Positions 14,105 to 25,553 of a stretch of 64,000 bases of DNA are shown one piece after another. Positions within the stretch are counted from its first letter, which is position 1, and each line of letters opens with the position of its first letter. Location: NCBI GenBank assembly GCA_902826215.1, contig CADEDY010000004.1, positions 1 through 64,000 of the forward strand, read 5' to 3'. This DNA comes from an uncultured Bacteroidota bacterium. GTDB taxonomy: Bacteria > Bacteroidota > Bacteroidia > Flavobacteriales_F > PHOS-HE28. Position numbers and translations under genes: made by a program. The notes under the pieces were generated by a model. That model saw only the letters and a list, made by a program, of their open reading frames with translations, ran no database searches and was not told where the DNA came from.

Positions 14105-16141
14105 TCAATACCCCACCAACCTCTCCACCGCCCCCTTCAACCTCCCCTTCGCCAGGAACCCGTTCTCCAAGGGGATCGCGAACGGCACCGGCGTATCCCA
14201 ACTGGCTACGCGCACCACGGGCGCATCCAGGTATTCGAAGGCGTGTTCGTTGATCAGCGCGCTGATCTCGCCACCCATGCCGGCGGTCAAGGTGTCTTCG
14301 TGCAGCACGAGGGCCTTGCCGGTCTTCTTCACGCTGGTAAGGATGGTGTCCACATCCAGCGGCACCAAGGTGCGCAGGTCGATGATCTCGATGTCGAGGC
14401 TGGTCTCCTTCTGCACGTCCACGGCCCAGTGCACGCCCATGCCGTAGGTGATGATGCTCATGGTAGCGCCTTCGCGCACCACCTTGGCTTGGCCGAACGG
14501 AATGCCATAGGGCTGTTCGGGCACCGGTCCGCTGATGCTGCGGTACATCGCCTTGTGCTCGAAGAACATCACCGGGTTCGGGTCGTCGAAGGCCGTCATC
14601 AATAGGCCCTTGGCGTCGTAAGGGTTGCTCGGGTACACCACCTTGAGGCCGGGTGTCTTCACGAACCACATTTCGTTGCTCTGACTGTGGAAGGGTCCAG
14701 CACCAACGCCTGCGCCCGTGGGCATGCGCACCACCACGTCGGCGTTCTGGCCCCAGCGGTAGTGGATCTTTGCGAAATTGTTGCAGATCTGGGTGATGCC
14801 CTCGCTCACGAAATCGGCGAACTGCATCTCCATCATGGCCTTCATGCCTTTGATGCTAAGACCCAGCGCTGCACCGAGGATCGCGCTTTCGCACAGCGGC
14901 GTATTGCGCACACGGCCTTTGCCGAACTGCTCCACGAAACCATCGGTGATCTTGAATGCACCGCCGTATTCCGCGATGTCCTGCCCCATCAACACCAGGT
15001 TCTCGTGGCGCTCCATGCTTTGGCGCATGCCTTCTTGGATGGCGTCGATCATTCTGATCTCTCTGGCCGCGAGCTTCGAGCCTTGAGCCTCGAGCTCGCG
15101 GCTCGTGGCTAGCGGCTCGTGGCCTGCGCTCATCGGAGCATAAACGTCACCAACCTCGACGGTTTCAACAGGCACCGGTTCCGGCTCCTCGAATGCATGC
15201 TTCAGGTCCTCCTCGATGCCGTCCTTCAACCGGGTGCGGATCTCGTCCCGCTTGGCGATGCTCAGCACTCCGATCTTCAACAGCCACGCTTCGTAGTTGG
15301 CCACGGGATCCTTCTTGCCCCAGACCTCGAACAGTTCCTTGGGCACATACTTGGTGCCGCTCGCTTCCTCGTGACCGCGCATGCGGAAGGTCATGCACTC
15401 CACCAGGATCGGACGCGGGTTCTCGCGGATGCTGTCCGCCAATTTCGCTAGGTTGTTGTACACCTCCAGGATGTTGTTGCCCGCGAGCTGCACCGACTCG
15501 ATGCCGTAGCCGATGGCCTTGTCGGTGAAGCTCTTCATGCGGAACTGCTCGCTGCTGGGCGTGCTCAGTCCGTAACCGTTGTTCTCGATGATGAACAGCA
15601 CCGGCAGGTCCCACACAGCGGCCACGTTCACGCTCTCGTGGAAGTCGCCTTCGCTCGTTGCACCATCACCAGTAAAGACGATCGTGCAACGGTTCTCCTT
15701 CTTCAGCTTGTGCGCCAGCGCGATACCATCGGCAATGCCCATTTGCGGCCCGAGGTGGCTGATCATGCCCACCACCTTGTGCTCCTGACTGCCGAAGTGG
15801 AAGCTGCGTTCTCGGCCTTTGCTATAGCCGGTGGCCTTCCCCTGCCATTGCGCAAAGAGCTTCTGGAACGGCATGCCCCGCGTGGTGAACACGCCCAGGT
15901 TGCGGTGCATTGGCAGGATGTACTCATCGTTCTGCAACACCATGGCGGCGCCCACGCTGATGGCCTCTTGCCCGATGCCACTGAACCACTTGCTGATCTT
16001 GCCCTGCCTCAGCAGGCTGAGCATCTTCTCCTCGATGATGCGCGGATAGACCAGCTTCTCGTACGTGCTGATCAGGAAAGCATCGTTGTGTGTGCCACGC
16101 TCATAGTGGAGCTGGCGATCCTCGGTGGTCTGTAGGGACAT
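14105..16141 (-). CDS. 2-oxo acid dehydrogenase E1, fused alpha and beta subunits
   Basis: 678 residues. Residues ~1-335 are the thiamine-diphosphate-binding alpha part (VFTGDGATSEGDFHESVNVA ... FIIENNGYGLSTP: GDG...NN motif; RMRGHEEASGTKYVPKELFE). Residues ~362-678 are the beta part (ALNEAMRQ-like DAIQEGMRQSMERHENLVLMGQDIAEYGGAF ... VVRMPTGAGVGAGPFHSQSNE ... VLHEDTLTAGMGGEI). Likely branched-chain 2-oxo acid (2-oxoisovalerate) or related dehydrogenase acting with E2/E3 encoded elsewhere. Alpha/beta fusion is common in Bacteroidota. The linker at residues ~340-360 is encoded by an odd internal repeat. The start at 16141 follows a promoter box. Confidence 0.93.
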   Translation of the reverse strand: MSLQTTEDRQLHYERGTHNDAFLISTYEKLVYPRIIEEKMLSLLRQGKISKWFSGIGQEAISVGAAMVLQNDEYILPMHRNLGVFTTRGMPFQKLFAQWQGKATGYSKGRERSFHFGSQEHKVVGMISHLGPQMGIADGIALAHKLKKENRCTIVFTGDGATSEGDFHESVNVAAVWDLPVLFIIENNGYGLSTPSSEQFRMKSFTDKAIGYGIESVQLAGNNILEVYNNLAKLADSIRENPRPILVECMTFRMRGHEEASGTKYVPKELFEVWGKKDPVANYEAWLLKIGVLSIAKRDEIRTRLKDGIEEDLKHAFEEPEPVPVETVEVGDVYAPMSAGHEPLATSRELEAQGSKLAAREIRMIDAIQEGMRQSMERHENLVLMGQDIAEYGGAFKITDGFVEQFGKGRVRNTPLCESAILGAALGLSIKGMKAMMEMQFADFVSEGITQICNNFAKIHYRWGQNADVVVRMPTGAGVGAGPFHSQSNEMWFVKTPGLKVVYPSNPYDAKGLLMTAFDDPNPVMFFEHKAMYRSISGPVPEQPYGIPFGQAKVVREGATMSIITYGMGVHWAVDVQKETSLDIEIIDLRTLVPLDVDTILTSVKKTGKALVLHEDTLTAGMGGEISALINEHAFEYLDAPVVRVASWDTPVPFAIPLENGFLAKGRLKGAVERLVGY
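15064..15124 (-). repeat. In-frame GAGCC/GAGCTCG repeat encoding the E1 alpha-beta linker
   Basis: The minus strand repeats words of the type GAGCCACGAGCCGCTAGCC, GCGAGCTCGAGGCTCAAGG and CTCGAAGCTCGCGGC. It is low in complexity and partly palindromic, quite unlike the flanking enzyme code, and translates to the linker EPLATSRELEAQGSKLAARE. Confidence 0.65.
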
Positions 16142-16158
16142 GGGCTTGTTCAGAGGCG

Positions 16159-16166
16159 CAAAGGTA
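16159..16166 (-). promoter_or_regulatory. -7 box of the E1 gene
   Basis: TACCTTTG on the minus strand, an exact match to TAnnTTTG, 17 nt before the ATG at 16141. No -33 TTG seen at the normal spacing. Confidence 0.5.
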
Positions 16167-16302
16167 TTTCGGGGGCATTTGACGGGTGCAGGAGTTGTTA
16201 GTTGTGGGTTGTCAGCTAACATCTGCCGGAACAGGGCCTAGTGATCCATTCGAAAGAGAGGCGGAAGGCTTTGGGCGTGCCCCCGCCACTGCGCACGGCT
16301 GC

Positions 16303-16438: not shown

Positions 16439-17377
16439 ATGTCTGCTCCCAACATCGCCGTCATCGCCCCGTGCTTCAACGAAGAGGGTGCGGTGCTGCC
16501 CTTCCTTACGGAACTGGAGCAGGTGCTGGCCCGGCTGGAGGAGCCTTGCATTATCATCCTCGTGGACGACGGCTCGCTGGACGCTACGCGGGAAAAGGCC
16601 TTGAGCTATCGCCCCAGCTCTGCCAACGTCACTATTCAAGTGATCGCCCTCCCCTACACCATGGGCCATCAAGAAGCCATCTACCAAGGGCTGCTTTACG
16701 CCGAATCAACGACTGCACGTCGGTTCGTGGTCATCGACGGCGACGGCGAGGACGACCCCGGTGCCATCGGCGAGTTGGCCAGCATTCGCGATTCCTCCAT
16801 CGTTTTCGTGGGGCGTGGCAAGCGGTCCGAATCGGTCGGGTTCCAATTGGGCTATCAACTCTACCGCATGGTCTTCCGCTTGGTTGCCGGCAAGCGCATC
16901 ACCTTCGGCAACTACTCCATGATCGATCGGCGGGTACTGGCGGCGGTGCTGGACCGGTCCTTCGTTCACTACGCGGCTTTCCTGTCCAAGCAGCAGGTGC
17001 CCTCGCGCATCATCGTCCGCGACCGTCGCAAGCGGCTCGATGGGCATTCGAAGATGGGCTTCGGCAGCTTGTCACTTCATGCTTTCCGGTCCCTGATCGA
17101 GTACAGCGAAGAAGTGCTCGCCATCTTCCTGAAGGCCTTTCTGTACATGAGCGTCATCTTCCTGCTCTCATCGCTCACGATCGTTGGCATCAAGGTCTTC
17201 ACCTCGCTGGCGATCCCGGGTTGGGCCAGCATCCTATCGGCCACCTTGTTCAACTCCATGCTCCTGTGCTTGGGCTTCTTCGTCATCGGCTTGCTGTTGG
17301 CGAACACCGCACATCGCCGGGAACGTGCTGGGCTGCATCTGTACGAGGTGCTTCCGGGTTCTACCAGCGCCTCATGA
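16439..17377 (+). CDS. GT2 glycosyltransferase, DPM1/GtrB-like
   Basis: 312 residues. The N-terminal GT-A domain has VIAPCFNEEGAV, the metal-binding-type LVDDGSLDAT, MGHQEAIYQGL and the acceptor-loop VIDGDGEDDPGAI (in place of the usual DADLQD). The C-terminus has two transmembrane helices (FLYMSVIFLLSSLTIVGIKV and LLCLGFFVIGLLLANT). This is the architecture of GtrB/dolichol-phosphate-type enzymes that load a sugar onto polyprenyl phosphate at the cytoplasmic face. The ATG at 16439 is preferred to the GTG at 16433. Its stop overlaps the next start (ATGA). First gene of a five-gene operon. Confidence 0.88.
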   Translation: MSAPNIAVIAPCFNEEGAVLPFLTELEQVLARLEEPCIIILVDDGSLDATREKALSYRPSSANVTIQVIALPYTMGHQEAIYQGLLYAESTTARRFVVIDGDGEDDPGAIGELASIRDSSIVFVGRGKRSESVGFQLGYQLYRMVFRLVAGKRITFGNYSMIDRRVLAAVLDRSFVHYAAFLSKQQVPSRIIVRDRRKRLDGHSKMGFGSLSLHAFRSLIEYSEEVLAIFLKAFLYMSVIFLLSSLTIVGIKVFTSLAIPGWASILSATLFNSMLLCLGFFVIGLLLANTAHRRERAGLHLYEVLPGSTSAS

Positions 17378-18066
17378 ACTACGTCGGTTCGGAGCTGGAG
17401 CTCTTCCGGCATGCTGTGCGTTGGAAGAAGTACTGGGCCTCGCAGGTCGTGCAGTATGTGAACGGCCGCATCCTCGACGCGGGCTGTGGCATCGGTGCGA
17501 ACGCGGATCACTTGTGGTCGGAGCGTGCGATCTCCTACACCTTCCTTGAACCGGACGAACAATTGCTCGCACAGGTTCCGAAGAACGTTGGCGAACCTGT
17601 GAGGTCCCATGCCGAGTTGATCGTTGGAACCACCACGGATCTCCACGGAAGAGCCTTCGACAGCATCCTGTACATCGATGTGCTGGAACATCTTTCGGAT
17701 CCGAAGGAGGAGCTGCAACGCGCATTGGAACTGCTTGCACCCAAAGGACATCTGATCATTCTCGTTCCCGCTTTCCAGTTCCTGTACAGTCCGTTCGACA
17801 AGGCCATTGGGCATCATCGGCGATACGACCGACCATCGCTTCACGCACACCTACCGAGCGGAGCAACCATCGTGAAAGAGCGCTATTTGGACAGCGTGGG
17901 TATGCTACTTTCACTCGGAAACAAACTGTTGCTGCGAAGCGCTGCGCCCACGATCGCTCAGATCCAGTTCTGGGATTCACGCGTCGTGCCGCTCTCCCGC
18001 TTCTTCGATCCGCTGATCCGTCACGCGTTCGGCCGCTCCTTGGTGGTTGTCTTGCGCAAGGACTGA
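17374..18066 (+). CDS. Class I SAM-dependent methyltransferase
   Basis: 230 residues. ILDAGCGIGANADHL is SAM motif I, FLEPDEQLL fits the acidic end of strand 2, and SILYIDVLEHLSDPKEEL is the post-I LEH motif typical of small-molecule and glycolipid methyltransferases. LAPKGHLIILVPAF and the IGHHRRYDR segment resemble methyltransferases found beside glycosyltransferases. ATGA overlap with the GT2 gene couples translation. Likely substrate is a lipid-linked or envelope intermediate made by the operon (inference). A longer frame reaching 16186 overlaps the GT2 gene and is not coding there. Confidence 0.85.
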   Translation: MNYVGSELELFRHAVRWKKYWASQVVQYVNGRILDAGCGIGANADHLWSERAISYTFLEPDEQLLAQVPKNVGEPVRSHAELIVGTTTDLHGRAFDSILYIDVLEHLSDPKEELQRALELLAPKGHLIILVPAFQFLYSPFDKAIGHHRRYDRPSLHAHLPSGATIVKERYLDSVGMLLSLGNKLLLRSAAPTIAQIQFWDSRVVPLSRFFDPLIRHAFGRSLVVVLRKD

Positions 18067-18078
18067 AGAAGGCCCGGC

Positions 18079-18086
18079 TATCTTCA
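18079..18086 (+). promoter_or_regulatory. Possible internal -7 box before the GT-C-like gene
   Basis: TATCTTCA, 5 nt before the ATG at 18092, just inside the 25-bp gap after the methyltransferase. It would allow the last three genes to be transcribed separately. Confidence 0.35.
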
Positions 18087-18091
18087 CCGCC

Positions 18092-19585
18092 ATGCTGCCC
18101 GCGCTGGAAAACGCATCCATACTTGGCATACCGCTGCGGAGGCTGTTCGTGATTGCAGCAGTCGTTATCGCAGCGTTCAACCTTGGCCTGCGGGGCCGCA
18201 TGGTGTTCCAGTACCGCTCCGATCTCGGTGGTGTGGAGCACAACGTGGTACACGGCATCCAGAAAGTGATGCAGGGCGATGTGCTCTACGACGACCCGGA
18301 GGCACCACCTTTCGATGTGATCCAATACACACCGGCGCACTTCTTGGTCTGCGCAACCATCGCAAAGGTTTTCGGCTTCGATGCAGGAGACGTTCGTGCC
18401 ATCTACTTGATCAACCGACTGGTTGCCTTGCTGTGCAACGTGTTGCTCGCGTGGCTGGTCTTCCGTCTTGCACGTGTTGGCGGTGCGGCGTCGTGGTCTT
18501 CGATACTGGCTGCGTGTTTCGCGTTCGCTACCCTTTGGGAACAGTCCTATGGCCGCATGGATGCACTGGCCAGCGCCGCGCTATTCGGGGCCTTCTTGGC
18601 TTTTGCGAAATGGCTGATGGACCCGAGGGACCGTCACCTGATCATCTGTGGCGTACTCGGTGTATTGAGTTTGATGACGAAGCAATCCGGCGTGATCGCG
18701 TTGATCATTCCGGTGCTGCACGTGTTGCTTCATCGGCAATGGCGACCGTTCCGCATCCTAGCAGTATCGATCGTCGTGGGGTTGCTCGTTGCACTGTTCG
18801 GTCTGTCCTTCATGGGTTCATGGGCGCACATCCAACAACACATCGTGCGCGGTCTCGCGAACGGCTACAGCCTGATGATGTGGCATGATCTGTTCTCGCC
18901 TGCGACCTACAAGTACTTCATCGGCTGGCACGTTCTGGCCATCGGCGTTGTCCTGGTCGGCATGCGCTCTGCACACAAGGCCCTGCGCTTCCTGGCATTG
19001 GCCGTAGCCATCAGTACGGTCTTCGCCATGGTCACCGGACTGAAGCTCGGCAGCCGTTTGAACTACCTGCATGATGGCCTGACCCTGACATTCATCGGCA
19101 CATCATTGCTTATCGCACGATCGGGATCGCCAACACGCAAGAACCTGCTCGCATGGGCTTTCGGGCTCTACGGCTGCCTGTTCGCCGCTTTCCGCACGAA
19201 CAGCGCCATGTCGTGGTACCACTTGGGAGAACCGGATGAGCTCGCTCAAGCCGAAATGGAGAAGGACCTTGTGGTGCGCGATGTACTGATCAACGAGCTT
19301 CATCTACTTCCGAACGAATCCCTGTACATCACCTACCGCGGCTACTTGGAACATGATTTCGTCGGCCAGTGCGTACTGACCCAGAAGGATATTGTTCAAT
19401 TCAGCACACGACCACTGTTCGACTACGGCCGATTCCACGATGCCATGACCGATGGAACGGTCCGCTACGTCGTCACCGACAAGCCCTCACAACCCGTCTC
19501 TATCCTCGGGCACACCTACCCGGGCTGGGTGCCGATCCGGTCGGTTGAAGGACGGACCATTCTTGGCCGAGACACAACACCGTGA
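18092..19585 (+). CDS. Polytopic membrane glycosyltransferase-like protein (GT-C/PMT type)
   Basis: 497 residues with about ten hydrophobic helices (for example LFVIAAVVIAAFNLGL, VALLCNVLLAWLVFRLA, FRILAVSIVVGLLVALFGLSFMG). An acidic first periplasmic loop (YRSDLGGVEHNVVHGIQKVMQGDVLYDDPEAPPFDVIQYTP) matches the layout of GT39/ArnT/RgtA-like enzymes that use polyprenyl-phosphate sugars. The C-terminal ~120 residues are soluble and probably periplasmic. Its position after the GtrB-like enzyme suggests it transfers that sugar to an envelope acceptor. A specific EC activity cannot be assigned. Confidence 0.75.
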   Translation: MLPALENASILGIPLRRLFVIAAVVIAAFNLGLRGRMVFQYRSDLGGVEHNVVHGIQKVMQGDVLYDDPEAPPFDVIQYTPAHFLVCATIAKVFGFDAGDVRAIYLINRLVALLCNVLLAWLVFRLARVGGAASWSSILAACFAFATLWEQSYGRMDALASAALFGAFLAFAKWLMDPRDRHLIICGVLGVLSLMTKQSGVIALIIPVLHVLLHRQWRPFRILAVSIVVGLLVALFGLSFMGSWAHIQQHIVRGLANGYSLMMWHDLFSPATYKYFIGWHVLAIGVVLVGMRSAHKALRFLALAVAISTVFAMVTGLKLGSRLNYLHDGLTLTFIGTSLLIARSGSPTRKNLLAWAFGLYGCLFAAFRTNSAMSWYHLGEPDELAQAEMEKDLVVRDVLINELHLLPNESLYITYRGYLEHDFVGQCVLTQKDIVQFSTRPLFDYGRFHDAMTDGTVRYVVTDKPSQPVSILGHTYPGWVPIRSVEGRTILGRDTTP

Positions 19586-19594
19586 TCGGTTGCG

Positions 19595-19602
19595 CATCTT
19601 CG
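19595..19602 (+). promoter_or_regulatory. Possible -7 box before the LtaS-like gene
   Basis: CATCTTCG, 5 nt before the ATG at 19608. One further mismatch from TAnnTTTG than the best boxes, but with the same spacing. Confidence 0.25.
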
Positions 19603-19607
19603 CACCC

Positions 19608-21488
19608 ATGTTCCGTGGTCCGCTGACTGTTCTCCTCCTGCGCTTGGGCGTGGTCGGCGGCTTGTACTCCGTGTTGCGGCTTCTATTCTGGTTGTACAAC
19701 AGCGCACTGTTCCCTGCACCGCCGGTCGTTTCCTTCATGGGTGGTTTGCGCTTCGATGCCTCGGCCATTGCGTGGATCAACCTACCCTGGGTGCTCCTGA
19801 TCCTCATCCAACCGAGGCCCGGAAAGCGCTTTGCGCGCATTCAGTTCGGCGTCTTCTTCCTGGTGAATGCCTTCGCACTGTTCTTCAATTGTGTGGACCT
19901 CGGCTACTATGCGTTCAGCCTGAAACGGAGCACTGCCGACTTCTTGGAGATCATCACCACCGGAGGCGACACGGCAAGCCTTGCTCCCGCCTTCGTGCGC
20001 GACTACTGGCACATTCTATTGGTCTACCTCGCTTGCTTGGCGATCCTGATCTGGAGCTATCCACGCATCGGACGAATGCAGCCGACCGCTGTCCCCAGGT
20101 GGTCGTGGCGGATAGGCTGGCGCGTCGTCGCCATTGTTCTGCTTGGCCTTGCCACACGCGGCGGCACGCAACTGATCCCCTTGCAAGCGCTCGATGCGGC
20201 GAAGTACGGCGGCGCGAACTACATCCCGGTCGTGTTGAACACCCCGTTCACCATCCTTACGACACTCGGTAAACAGACCCTGACGGACCGCAACTACATG
20301 ACCGCTGCTGAAGCCGAGAAGCTATGGCCGGTGATCCAAACCGATCACGTGTACGTGGCAGATAGCACGACGACCGCCCTGCGCCCAGAAAAGCCCAATG
20401 TGGTCGTGATCATCCTCGAAAGCTTCTCCGCGTTGTACAGCACAACACTCGCCGGTGGTGAAAGCTACATGCCCTTCCTCGATTCGTTGATGGGCCAGAG
20501 CCACACATGCACCAACGCATACGCCAATGGTCGGCGGAGCATCGATGGTATTCCTGCGATCCTGGCGAGCATGCCGCAATGGATGGATGAGGCCTTCATC
20601 ACCTCACCGTATTCGAGCATTCCATTCTCCTCCTTGGCGAACGTCCTTGGACCAGAAGGTTACCGCACCAGTTTCTACCACGGCGGTCGCAACGGCACCA
20701 TGGGCTTCGATGGGTTCTCCAAGAGCGCAGGATTCGAGCGCTACGTCGGACTGAATGAATACGGCGCGGACTCCCCGGACTTCGATGGGCACTGGGGCGT
20801 GCGCGACCAGCCGTTCCTGCAGTTCTGCGCGCGCGAACTCGACAAGGAAGAGCAACCCTTCTTGAGTACGGTCTTCACCCTGAGCAGTCATCATCCCTAT
20901 GAGTTGCCCGCGCCCGATGCCGCGCGCTTCGCAGGTGGAACACAGCCGATCCAACCAACGCTGCGCTACACCGACGATGCCTTGCGCCAATTCTTCGCAA
21001 CCGCCCGAACGATGCCTTGGTATGCCAACACCCTGTTCGTGATCACCGCCGATCATACGGCCGATCTGGAACGCAACGGATCACAAGGCAACAAGCCCAT
21101 CGACTACTGGGTACCGCTGATCTATCATGCGCCTTGGCTAGAGCAGAAGTTGGATCCGCAGGTCACGCAGCACATCGACATCCAACCAACCGTGCTGGCC
21201 ATGGTCGGTCATCGCGGCCCCTTCTTCAGCTTTGGCCACAACGCTCTTGATCCTGCGCATCCGCCGGTGGCGATCTGGTCCAACAACGGTTTGTACACGA
21301 TCACCGATGCTCAGCAACAGGTCCAGTTCAATGGAGAAGAAACACTCGGCGTGATCCAGCTTCAGGATGACGTTGAGGTCGACAGGAACGAGACCTTTGA
21401 TCTGGAGCGCCACTTGAGAGCGGCGATCCAACAATACAACCACCATTTGATCAACGCAGAACTCACCATCAAACCCGTGCGACGATGA
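19608..21488 (+). CDS. LTA-synthase-family phosphoglycerol transferase (sulfatase fold)
   Basis: 626 residues. Five N-terminal transmembrane helices are followed by a periplasmic sulfatase-type domain starting near residue 262: NVVVIILESFS (metal-binding Glu), NGRRSIDGIPAILASMP (a Ser sits where Firmicute LtaS has its catalytic Thr), FTLSSHHPYELP (His) and VITADHTADL (Asp-His). LtaS-type enzymes move glycerol-phosphate from phosphatidylglycerol to an acceptor and release diacylglycerol. The following gene, a diacylglycerol kinase, overlaps its stop by 4 bp, which fits recycling of that product. A phosphoethanolamine transferase is an alternative, but LtaS-type motifs fit better. Confidence 0.87.
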   Translation: MFRGPLTVLLLRLGVVGGLYSVLRLLFWLYNSALFPAPPVVSFMGGLRFDASAIAWINLPWVLLILIQPRPGKRFARIQFGVFFLVNAFALFFNCVDLGYYAFSLKRSTADFLEIITTGGDTASLAPAFVRDYWHILLVYLACLAILIWSYPRIGRMQPTAVPRWSWRIGWRVVAIVLLGLATRGGTQLIPLQALDAAKYGGANYIPVVLNTPFTILTTLGKQTLTDRNYMTAAEAEKLWPVIQTDHVYVADSTTTALRPEKPNVVVIILESFSALYSTTLAGGESYMPFLDSLMGQSHTCTNAYANGRRSIDGIPAILASMPQWMDEAFITSPYSSIPFSSLANVLGPEGYRTSFYHGGRNGTMGFDGFSKSAGFERYVGLNEYGADSPDFDGHWGVRDQPFLQFCARELDKEEQPFLSTVFTLSSHHPYELPAPDAARFAGGTQPIQPTLRYTDDALRQFFATARTMPWYANTLFVITADHTADLERNGSQGNKPIDYWVPLIYHAPWLEQKLDPQVTQHIDIQPTVLAMVGHRGPFFSFGHNALDPAHPPVAIWSNNGLYTITDAQQQVQFNGEETLGVIQLQDDVEVDRNETFDLERHLRAAIQQYNHHLINAELTIKPVRR

Positions 21489-22348
21489 AGGCGATGGTGA
21501 TCTACAACCCGCGATCGGGCAAGAAACAAGCGGCACGCATCAAGGCCATTGCCGCGACCTCCGCAGCTGCTCGAGATGTGCACCTTGACCTTCGCGGGAT
21601 CGAAGGACCGGGGCATGGCACCGTGCTGGCAAGGGAGGCGGTTGCACAGGGCTTCGACCGGGTGATCAGCGTAGGCGGCGATGGCACGAACAATGCCATT
21701 GCCCAAGGCTTGGTGAACACGAAGGTTCCTCTGGGGATCGTGGCCATGGGTAGCGGCAACGGGTACGCACGTTCCATCGGTCTTTCGTTGGATCCGGAGA
21801 AGGCCCTGGCACATGCGCTCACCGGCACTGCTCGTGGCATGGACGTATGCTATTTGAACGACCACCTCTTCCTCGGCACCGCAGGTATCGGTTTCGATGC
21901 GCGTGTGGCGGACCGTTTCGACAAAAGCAAGAGCCGGGGCATGTTCGGCTATGCGAAGATCATCGTGCAGGAGATCTTCGGTGCGCCGCCGATGCGTGTT
22001 GTGGTGAAAGCGAATCACGAAACGACGGAATCACAGGTCCTGATGGTCGTGTTCTGCAACACCCGCGAATTCGGGAACGGTGCGGATATCAGTCCGGGTT
22101 CGTTGCCCGATGATGGCTTGGCGGAACTGCGTATCGTTACCAAGCCTTCCTTCTTTCCACTGATCCAGGCCTTCGTGCAGATCTACACCCACCAAGCCGA
22201 CAAGAGCAAGTACATCCGCAACATCGCGACCCGCGAAGCGCAAGTATGGCAAGCGGGAACCATCGCACATTTGGATGGCGAGCCCGTCGAAGTAGGCAAT
22301 GAGGTGCGCTTCAGATTGGAGCCGAAACGGTTGTTGGTGGTGGGTTGA
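21485..22348 (+). CDS. Diacylglycerol kinase-family lipid kinase (YegS/DgkB type)
   Basis: 287 residues. MVIYNPRSGKKQAARIK is the N-terminal NPxSG motif, VISVGGDGTNNAIAQGL is the catalytic GGDGT loop, and MGSGNGYARSIGLSL is the GTGND-like motif. GTAGIGFDARVA and the C-terminal HLDGEPVEVG complete the family signature. It phosphorylates diacylglycerol or a similar lipid on the inner face of the membrane. ATGA overlap with the LtaS-like gene; last gene of the envelope operon. Convergent with the cupin gene across a 66-bp gap that holds a weak hairpin only. Confidence 0.92.
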   Translation: MKAMVIYNPRSGKKQAARIKAIAATSAAARDVHLDLRGIEGPGHGTVLAREAVAQGFDRVISVGGDGTNNAIAQGLVNTKVPLGIVAMGSGNGYARSIGLSLDPEKALAHALTGTARGMDVCYLNDHLFLGTAGIGFDARVADRFDKSKSRGMFGYAKIIVQEIFGAPPMRVVVKANHETTESQVLMVVFCNTREFGNGADISPGSLPDDGLAELRIVTKPSFFPLIQAFVQIYTHQADKSKYIRNIATREAQVWQAGTIAHLDGEPVEVGNEVRFRLEPKRLLVVG

Positions 22349-23133: not shown

Positions 23134-25488
23134 CTACTGCCCCTTCATCTCCCCGCCCACCTGCTTGTTGCGTTCCATCTGCATCGGGTTCGGTTGGCGC
23201 CCTTCGCGTTCCTTGAATACATCGAAGCGCGTGGGTACCAAGCGTGGTGGCCAACTGTTGTTGTTGAGGTCGCAGTCTGCAGTTTCCAAGAAGGGGTCCA
23301 AGGTCACGCTCTTCACTTCCTTGCGCTTCACGAAGACCTTGCTCACTTCGTCGCTGGTCTTCCAGATCTCGGCGGGGATGCGGTCCACCTCCTTCGTGCC
23401 ATCCGCATACTCCCATTCCAGGATCACGGGCATCACCAAGCCACCGATGTTCTTGAACTGAACCTCGTAGAGAAAGAGGTCTTCATTGAGGAGTGCTTCA
23501 TCCTCGGGCTTCAAGCCTTTCTTCCACTGCTCGTATTTGGCCCTATCGCGTTCGGTTGCGGTGAGCGGATCATAACTGTTGTAGAAATCCTTGGTGCTCG
23601 GATCGCGTTCCACGACCACCTGCGGGACATCCTTCATGTTCCTTTCTCGGCTGAGGTCGGCGACTTCGCGTGACTTGTCCGCTCGTTTCAACTGCTCGGC
23701 CAATGCCGGATCGCGCGGGTCCATGCGCTTGTACTTCAGATCCTCGATGCTGAGGTCCACATGGTCCGTGGTATAGAACCAACCGCGCCAGAACCAATCC
23801 AGGTCCACGGCACTGGCATCTTCCATGGTGCGGAAGAAGTCGGCTGGTGTCGGGTGCTTGAATTTCCAACGCTCGGCGTAGGTCTTGAAGGCGTGATCGA
23901 AAAGCTCCCGTCCCATGACCGTTTCGCGCAGGATGTTCAGCGCGGTGCACGGTTTACCGTATGCGTTGTTGCCGAACTGCGTGATGCTTTCGCTGTTGGT
24001 CATGATGGGTTCGATGCGTGCCTTCACCTGGCCGGGTGCCGCATTGGGATCGCCTTTCATGTAATCCACGATGTTGCGTGGTTTGCCGCGCCAGCTCGGG
24101 TAATCGCGGTCCCACTCCTGCTCGGTGAGGTATTGCACGAAGGTGTTCAACCCTTCATCCATCCAGGTCCACTGGCGCTCATCGCTGTTGATGATCATCG
24201 GGAAGAAGTTGTGGCCCACTTCGTGGATGATCACGCCGATCATGCCATACTTGGTGCGCTCACTATAGGTCCCGTCCTTCTCGGGTCGTCCGCCGTTGAA
24301 GCAGATCATCGGGTACTCCATGCCGATGCGATCCGTGTGGACGCTGATGGCAACGGGATAGATGTAATCACAGGTGAACTTGCTGTAGGTCTTGATCGTG
24401 TGTGCCACCACCTTGGTGCTGTATTGCTCCCAAAGCGGATTGCCCTCCTTCGGGTAGTAGCTCATGCAAAGGACATTGTGCTTGCCCACAGGCTGGTTCT
24501 GGCCGTCCCAGATGAACTTCCGACTGCTGGCGAAGGCGACATCGCGCACGTTCTGTGCTTTGAAGACCCAGGTCTTCTTTCCCGTGGCCTTGGTCTTCTC
24601 GGCCTTCGCGGCTTCCTCCGGGGTCACGATCATAATCGGTTCATCGGCACTGCGCGCCTTGGCAAGTCGGCTGCGCTGCTCGCTGGAAAGCACAGCACTT
24701 TCATTCTGAAGCACACCAGTGGCACCCACGATGTGGTCACTGGGCACGGTGATGCTCAACGAATAATCGCCGAAGTCGAGTGTGAATTCACCTGAACCAA
24801 GGAACTGCTTGTGCATCCAGCCGCTGTAGTCCATGTAGGCGCACATGCGCGGGTAGAACTGCGCACAGGTGTAGAGGTAATTATCCTCATCCGCGAAGTA
24901 CTCGTAGCCGCTACGGCCGCCCACCTTCATGCGGTCGTTGATCGGGAACCACCAGTCCAACTTGAAACTGTAGACCGCTCCCGGCGCCAATGGCCTGGGC
25001 AGGTCGATCCGCATCATGGTCTTGTTGATCTTATGATCCAGCTTATTTCCGGACCCATCGGTAACGCTGGTGATACGGAAGCCACCATCGAAGGGCTCCA
25101 CCCATTTCCGGAGTTGATCGATCGAGACACTGTCCGAGATGGTACCGGTGCGGATCAGGTTGGCGTCGCTGTTCGGTTCGAAGATGTTGCCATCCAACTG
25201 CAGCCACAGGTAGTCCAGCTTATCGGGGCTCTGGTTGTGGTAGGTGATGGTCTCGGTGCCGGTGAGCTTCTGCGTGGCATCGTCGATCTCCACCTTGATG
25301 TCGTAGTCGGCCTTCATCTGCCAATAGGCATGACCGGGCGCGCCGCTGGCGGTGCGCTGCTCGTTGGGCGTGGGCAGTTCCTGGTCCAACTGGCGGAACT
25401 TGTCGCGGCCATAGCGCGGAGAATCCTGCGCGGAAAGGATCGAGACGAACAAGCAAGCAACGGCGGTGAGAGAATGCTTCAGTACCAT
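23134..25488 (-). CDS. M1-family zinc metallopeptidase, exported
   Basis: 784 residues. A signal peptide (KHSLTAVACLFVSILSAQ) is followed by an M1 N-terminal beta domain (YDIKVEIDDATQKLTGTETITYHN), the exopeptidase-type GMEYP (near residue 390), the zinc motif HEVGHNFFP (near 421) and the second-shell WMDEGLNTF, whose Glu is the third zinc ligand. The C-terminal ~200 residues are the long extension typical of Bacteroidota periplasmic M1 peptidases. It probably degrades peptides in the periplasm. The ATG at 25488 is set by the signal peptide and a promoter box 5 nt upstream. Confidence 0.93.
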   Translation of the reverse strand: MVLKHSLTAVACLFVSILSAQDSPRYGRDKFRQLDQELPTPNEQRTASGAPGHAYWQMKADYDIKVEIDDATQKLTGTETITYHNQSPDKLDYLWLQLDGNIFEPNSDANLIRTGTISDSVSIDQLRKWVEPFDGGFRITSVTDGSGNKLDHKINKTMMRIDLPRPLAPGAVYSFKLDWWFPINDRMKVGGRSGYEYFADEDNYLYTCAQFYPRMCAYMDYSGWMHKQFLGSGEFTLDFGDYSLSITVPSDHIVGATGVLQNESAVLSSEQRSRLAKARSADEPIMIVTPEEAAKAEKTKATGKKTWVFKAQNVRDVAFASSRKFIWDGQNQPVGKHNVLCMSYYPKEGNPLWEQYSTKVVAHTIKTYSKFTCDYIYPVAISVHTDRIGMEYPMICFNGGRPEKDGTYSERTKYGMIGVIIHEVGHNFFPMIINSDERQWTWMDEGLNTFVQYLTEQEWDRDYPSWRGKPRNIVDYMKGDPNAAPGQVKARIEPIMTNSESITQFGNNAYGKPCTALNILRETVMGRELFDHAFKTYAERWKFKHPTPADFFRTMEDASAVDLDWFWRGWFYTTDHVDLSIEDLKYKRMDPRDPALAEQLKRADKSREVADLSRERNMKDVPQVVVERDPSTKDFYNSYDPLTATERDRAKYEQWKKGLKPEDEALLNEDLFLYEVQFKNIGGLVMPVILEWEYADGTKEVDRIPAEIWKTSDEVSKVFVKRKEVKSVTLDPFLETADCDLNNNSWPPRLVPTRFDVFKEREGRQPNPMQMERNKQVGGEMKGQ

Positions 25489-25493
25489 GGTCG

Positions 25494-25501
25494 CGAAGGT
25501 A
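25494..25501 (-). promoter_or_regulatory. -7 box of the M1 peptidase operon
   Basis: TACCTTCG on the minus strand, 5 nt before the ATG at 25488. Confidence 0.45.
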
Positions 25502-25540
25502 GTTGGCGGCCCTGAGAGGTTGAACACCGCCCCGCATGCC

Positions 25541-25548
25541 GATCTTTG
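25541..25548 (+). promoter_or_regulatory. -7 box of the DUF6702 gene
   Basis: GATCTTTG, 5 nt before a GTG at 25554. It lies downstream of the ATG at 25536, which argues that the GTG is the real start. Confidence 0.4.
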
Positions 25549-25553
25549 CACGC

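Follow-up and report, generated by a model that had tools for sequence, protein, structure and literature searches.

The closest described counterparts of the locus considered here pair a head-group transferase with a lipid kinase. In Firmicutes, LtaS, a sulfatase-fold enzyme with five transmembrane (TM) segments, has as its partner DgkB, a soluble kinase with a DAGK_cat domain. A head-group transferase is also paired with diacylglycerol (DAG) recycling in the Gram-negative E. coli, where OpgB (MdoB) is combined with DgkA, an unrelated small membrane kinase. EptA-type transferases share the superfamily fold of LtaS and OpgB, and modules of the GtrA/GtrB type with GT-C enzymes couple a polyprenyl-phosphate sugar synthase to a polytopic GT-C transferase. 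In Bacteroides thetaiotaomicron, BT4322, the sole DgkB/YerQ homolog of that organism, is the likely target of growth-inhibiting arylsulfamates, and its lipid is unassigned (Crawford et al. 2025, PMC12280919). The membrane lipids of arylsulfamate-treated cells were strongly altered, with a decrease in phosphorylated ceramides and an increase in triglycerides (PMC12280919).

Here, we analysed a 64,000-nucleotide stretch of DNA from an uncultured Bacteroidota bacterium (assembly GCA_902826215.1, contig CADEDY010000004.1; hereafter "the window") that contains five closely spaced genes, denoted A to E. The initial annotation had suggested that these genes form a single phosphoglycerol-plus-sugar system. 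Of that proposal the D–E unit found support, whereas the conserved five-gene set and the phosphatidylglycerol (PG) donor did not. Instead, A–E consists of two joined things, an old D–E unit and an A–B–C sugar-transfer cassette.

Organization of the Locus

All five genes lie on the forward strand between positions 16439 and 22348 (Table 1). According to the ORF coordinates, they either overlap or are separated by gaps of no more than 25 bp, which bears out the same-strand arrangement and tight spacing that had been described from the initial reading: A/B and D/E each share a 4-bp ATGA overlap, while the B/C and C/D gaps are 25 and 22 bp, respectively, and the five start positions in Table 1 are consistent with this spacing. 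D–E recurs across the class (see below), so that chance juxtaposition of open reading frames does not account for the A–E order, and A–B–C is a genuine, though variable, cassette. An M1-type peptidase-like gene is found 3′ of E in about half of the genus loci.

Table 1. Coordinates, strand and assignment of the genes at the locus (positions in the window).
Feature	Coordinates	Strand	Basis
A: GT2, GtrB/DPMS-like polyprenyl-phosphate sugar synthase	16439..17377	+	Pfam Glycos_transf_2, 49 bits, 6.6e-13
B: class I SAM methyltransferase, soluble	17374..18066	+	Methyltransf_23, 56 bits, 3.9e-15; no TM
C: polytopic GT-C-like glycosyltransferase	18092..19585	+	sub-threshold PMT_2; conserved motif
D: LtaS/OpgB-superfamily head-group transferase (predicted)	19608..21488	+	Sulfatase PF00884, 126 bits, 1.9e-36
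E: soluble DAGK_cat/YegS-type lipid kinase	21485..22348	+	DAGK_cat, 104 bits, 4.8e-30; YegS_C, 60 bits
Branched-chain 2-oxoacid dehydrogenase gene, upstream border of the slot	14105..16222	-	name by sequence recognition
M1-type peptidase-like gene, frequent downstream border	23134..25551	-	name by sequence recognition

The Transferase-Like Protein D

D consists of approximately five TM segments, corresponding to hydrophobic stretches before residue 185, and an extracytoplasmic sulfatase-fold domain (PF00884 at residues 263–534). Among solved structures it is closest to the uncharacterised Vibrio protein VP1736 (3lxq, 2.5e-35) and to LtaS (4uoo, 2.8e-22). The likely catalytic residues, E271, S311, H358, H428, D482 and H483, are all invariant in the alignment and mostly kept across 77 homologs, in which the motifs HGGxNGTMGFD, SSHHPY and DH are strongly conserved. 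D is an intact enzyme of the LtaS superfamily, in line with the LtaS-like label of the initial annotation. AlphaFold2 prediction from six sequences reached a pLDDT of 47 and a pTM of 0.40, a quality too low for further use.

The nucleophile position in D is a serine, Ser311, as in VP1736, whereas a threonine occupies it in LtaS, in OpgB and in the paralog encoded by the same genome. In S. aureus LtaS, the residues that contact the glycerol head group are H347, W354, R356 and H416. D has M365 and F367 at the positions of W354 and R356, with H358 and H428 kept. We considered this substitution as a marker of head-group identity and rejected it, since the PG-using OpgB of E. coli also lacks both residues.

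D does not reach the equivalog cut-off for either LtaS (81 bits against 970) or OpgB (30.5 bits against 574), and its similarity to OpgB is limited to 26% identity over 152 aa. The "lipoteichoic-acid-like" polymer of the initial annotation receives no specific support. With EptA-type transferases D would share the superfamily fold, a likely phosphatidylethanolamine (PE) donor and a DAG product, but the EptA N-terminal domain had no Pfam match in D, EptA was absent among its 38 profile matches, and BLAST found only an alignment in a TM stretch (E = 0.025), while the catalytic domains did not align significantly. Judged by sequence, D therefore appears to be LtaS/VP1736-like rather than EptA-like.

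The genome encodes a second LtaS/OpgB-superfamily paralog of 618 aa (L078:8860-10716, minus strand; G000:C3, ~123.4–125.3 kb), which is 25% identical to D, has a threonine at the nucleophile position and lies by an enolase-like gene, with no kinase gene beside it. Some genomes of the genus have extra D-like paralogs with 33–39% identity (L074, L075, L076 and L077), with neither E nor the cassette nearby.

The Lipid Kinase E

E contains both the DAGK_cat and the YegS_C domain, which places it with the YegS/DgkB type. The motifs GGDGT and LDGE are kept. A further motif reads GSGNG[YFL]AR, and in all homologs compared GSGNG replaces GTxND; because of this replacement, the lipid substrate of E is not readable from the sequence. 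Against NCBIfam TIGR00147, E scored 111.4 bits, just under the cut-off of 118.65 bits. Its best relatives among solved structures are YegS and DgkB. E also resembles BT4322 of B. thetaiotaomicron in being the lone homolog of the DgkB/YerQ type in its genome.

Conservation of the D–E Pair

The database assigns 45 genomes, the window's own among them, to a single genus, and D was found in 42 of these. In every genus locus whose contig extends beyond D (34/34), E follows D directly, with a gap of −4 to 14 bp. Across 396 Bacteroidia genomes, D homologs (E ≤ 1e-50) were present in 227 (57%), and at 23 of 41 sampled distant loci (including L038) E lies directly downstream of D on the same strand, at a distance of −3 to 62 bp, while the remaining 18 have no adjacent kinase. 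E is the sole DAGK_cat match in the window's genome, and since there is one such kinase gene among several thousand genes, its linkage to D is not due to chance. D–E is a conserved two-gene unit of the Bacteroidia. The initial annotation had seen in the kinase gene overlapping D a context for recycling, and this context recurs at the genus and distant loci with a DAGK_cat gene directly 3′ of D, as would be expected if head-group transfer is coupled to recycling of the lipid.

At 11 of the sampled distant loci (cluster c3, e.g., L156), D–E or D is followed by a small gene encoding ~113 aa that resembles SUI1/YciH-type translation factors.

The A–B–C Cassette

A comprises a GT2 domain and C-terminal hydrophobic helices (hydrophobic at residues 224–293), and its matches among solved structures are of the GtrB type (5ekp, 5eke and 9nye, ~5e-16; 4.9e-16 for 5ekp), consistent with the GtrB-like assignment made at the outset. 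For C, the PMT_2 profile reached only 22.3 bits against a cut-off of 26.1, although it matched 9 of 12 C homologs (best 1.3e-8), and the alignment of C contains a conserved G-x-E-x-N / LYxDPE / QYTP motif. As in GtrA/GtrB-type modules with GT-C enzymes, a probable polyprenyl-phosphate sugar synthase is paired with a polytopic protein, here GT-C-like; the cassette differs in having a methyltransferase and no GtrA-like flippase.

The cassette occupies a variable slot between the divergent branched-chain 2-oxoacid dehydrogenase gene and D, and in every genus locus whose contig reaches it, the dehydrogenase gene adjoins either D or the cassette. A–B–C is complete in eight other genomes of the genus (G001, G002, G003, G004, G008, G019, G022 and G026; in G019 the order is C–A–B), partial in four (B–C only in G039, G027 and probably G030; A only in G013) and absent from 20, in which the slot is almost empty (40–500 bp). 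The slot of G014 contains a diverged GT2/methyltransferase/GT-C trio in other orientations, and those of G017 and G020 contain other genes. Within the genus, the presence and absence of cassette genes amounts to at least six changes on the D tree, and the three genomes whose D is most similar to that of the window (G043, G010 and G044) have no cassette beside D. None of A, B or C was found near D in any of the 41 sampled distant Bacteroidia loci. This patchy distribution, together with the cassette-free nearest relatives, marks A–B–C as accessory and often lost or exchanged. The initial annotation had counted a scattering of the genes in relatives as evidence against its proposal, and for A–C this applies: outside the window's genome the complete set is confined to the eight genomes listed, and it was found at none of the distant loci. 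Horizontal arrival of the cassette was considered; the similarities of D and of the cassette fall in a broadly similar order, so that vertical inheritance with repeated loss would be the simpler explanation.

The function of A–B–C is most likely ordinary variable glycosylation, probably the addition of a (methylated) sugar via a polyprenyl-phosphate intermediate.

Another GtrB-like GT2 gene, with a methyltransferase gene resembling B directly behind it (25% and 35%, respectively), is present at L185:6792-8262 (G000:C3, ~304.8–306.3 kb), so that GT2–methyltransferase pairs recur in the window's genome. At L043:9011-12304 and L177:1780-4916, diverged GT2/methyltransferase/GT-C trios have C and B–A on opposite strands; the former trio lies in the same slot upstream of D.

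The Phospholipid Donor

The window's genome (completeness 100%) contains one CDP-alcohol phosphatidyltransferase gene (PF01066); the same model found matches in all 14 control genomes. This sole gene is a phosphatidylserine (PS) synthase, PssA (109.1 bits, curated cut-off 107). The PgsA model reached only 19 bits at the PssA locus, against a cut-off of 109, and none was recognised in the complete genome. A PS decarboxylase (Psd) is encoded in the window's genome and in 41 of the 45 genus genomes, and most genus genomes have a single PF01066 gene. The PgsA model TIGR00560 yielded no gene above its cut-off in 396 Bacteroidia genomes, but B. fragilis makes PG (1.5%; PMC12132519); TIGR00560 is therefore insensitive in this class, and the scan is unusable as proof that PG is absent class-wide. 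For PG, we therefore rely on what the general PF01066 model found in the complete genome of the window.

PG could arise by another route, such as a ClsB-like exchange. Queries with E. coli BioF, ClsB and EptA gave no match in the 1.3 Mb (~31%) of the genome covered. With genes for PssA and Psd present and PgsA unrecognised, PE is favoured as the donor over the PG of the initial annotation. The ethanolamine alternative, which that annotation had itself named, is now the more economical one, although by sequence D does not belong to the EptA family.

Discussion

We consider it probable, at roughly 60%, that D–E carries out head-group transfer and lipid recycling with PE as the donor, and that A–B–C is a separate accessory module. 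We infer that D, which is anchored in the inner membrane and has a metal site and a nucleophilic serine, would take the phospho-head group from a glycerophospholipid, likely PE, and transfer it to an acceptor in the envelope at the outer face of the inner membrane, leaving DAG, which the cytoplasmic E would re-phosphorylate to phosphatidic acid. In the cassette, A would load a sugar on polyprenyl phosphate, B would methylate an intermediate, and C would transfer the sugar on the outer side of the inner membrane. D–E does not need A–B–C, which may nevertheless decorate the same acceptor.

D–E resembles LtaS/DgkB in combining a five-TM sulfatase-fold enzyme, predicted to leave DAG, with a soluble DAGK_cat kinase. 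It differs in the serine nucleophile, the lack of W354 and R356 and a score far under the equivalog cut-off, as well as in the adjacency of the two genes and a host in which no PG synthase is recognised. Compared to OpgB/DgkA, the kinase is of the YegS/DgkB type and, unlike DgkA, genetically linked to the transferase.

D might instead be a PE-dependent phosphoethanolamine transferase to ceramide, with E either recycling DAG or acting as a ceramide kinase, which would place the pair in sphingolipid metabolism. The GSGNG motif of E is nearer the sphingosine-kinase form than GTxND is, although by overall sequence E is nearer YegS and DgkB than SphK1. The superfamily of E also includes Caulobacter CpgB, which phosphorylates both ceramide and DAG (PMC10331486), and the effects of arylsulfamate on phosphorylated ceramides and triglycerides in B. 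thetaiotaomicron (PMC12280919), presumably exerted via BT4322, are consistent with such a role. Ethanolamine-phosphoceramide (EPC) makes up ~32% of the lipid signal of B. fragilis (PMC12132519), the Bacteroides EPC synthase gene is unassigned (PMC8791184), and our literature search found no gene assigned to EPC synthase, or to an LtaS-like protein, in the Bacteroidota. D is present in 57% of Bacteroidia, however, the 1.3 Mb (~31%) of the genome covered yielded no homolog of E. coli BioF, whose family includes serine palmitoyltransferase, and we regard a ceramide acceptor as unlikely. The broader proposition that D–E represents a class-wide, LtaS-type, PE-using transfer of phosphoethanolamine to ceramide, with D as the missing EPC synthase of the Bacteroidota, is quite doubtful; in that case, BT4322 and other E-type kinases would be required because they recycle the DAG that D produces.

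A single five-gene pathway, in which D would use PG to add phosphoglycerol to a glycosylated envelope polymer, E would recycle the DAG and A–C would supply the sugar, accords with the kinship of D to LtaS and VP1736, the parallel between D–E and the LtaS–DgkB partnership and the tight packing of A–E in the window. We nevertheless find it quite unlikely, given a complete genome with no recognised PG synthase, the lack of the cassette from the majority of the genus and from every distant locus, and M365/F367 in place of W354/R356 (residues that the PG-using OpgB likewise lacks). A third alternative, in which D would hydrolyse a phosphodiester or phospholipid in the periplasm and E would salvage the released lipid, would fit the sulfatase-fold hydrolases among its weaker profile matches and the serine nucleophile, in contrast to the threonine of LtaS and OpgB, but is very improbable in view of its layout of five TM segments and a C-terminal domain and of closest relatives of the transferase type; VP1736, which also has the serine, has no assigned activity.

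The interest of the locus thus lies in the conserved D–E pair and not in the five-gene set. Proteins like D receive the pipeline name "LTA synthase family protein", though no PG synthase is recognised in this genome, and these cells are not known to have LTA. If E and BT4322 are orthologous, the D–E pair offers a possible genetic context for this orphan Bacteroides kinase, the reported target of arylsulfamate growth inhibition. With D–E, the head-group donor, its acceptor and the question of the EPC synthase become directly testable. The occurrence of the D–E operon across the class suggests that the pair has a general role in the envelope or lipid metabolism of the Bacteroidia.
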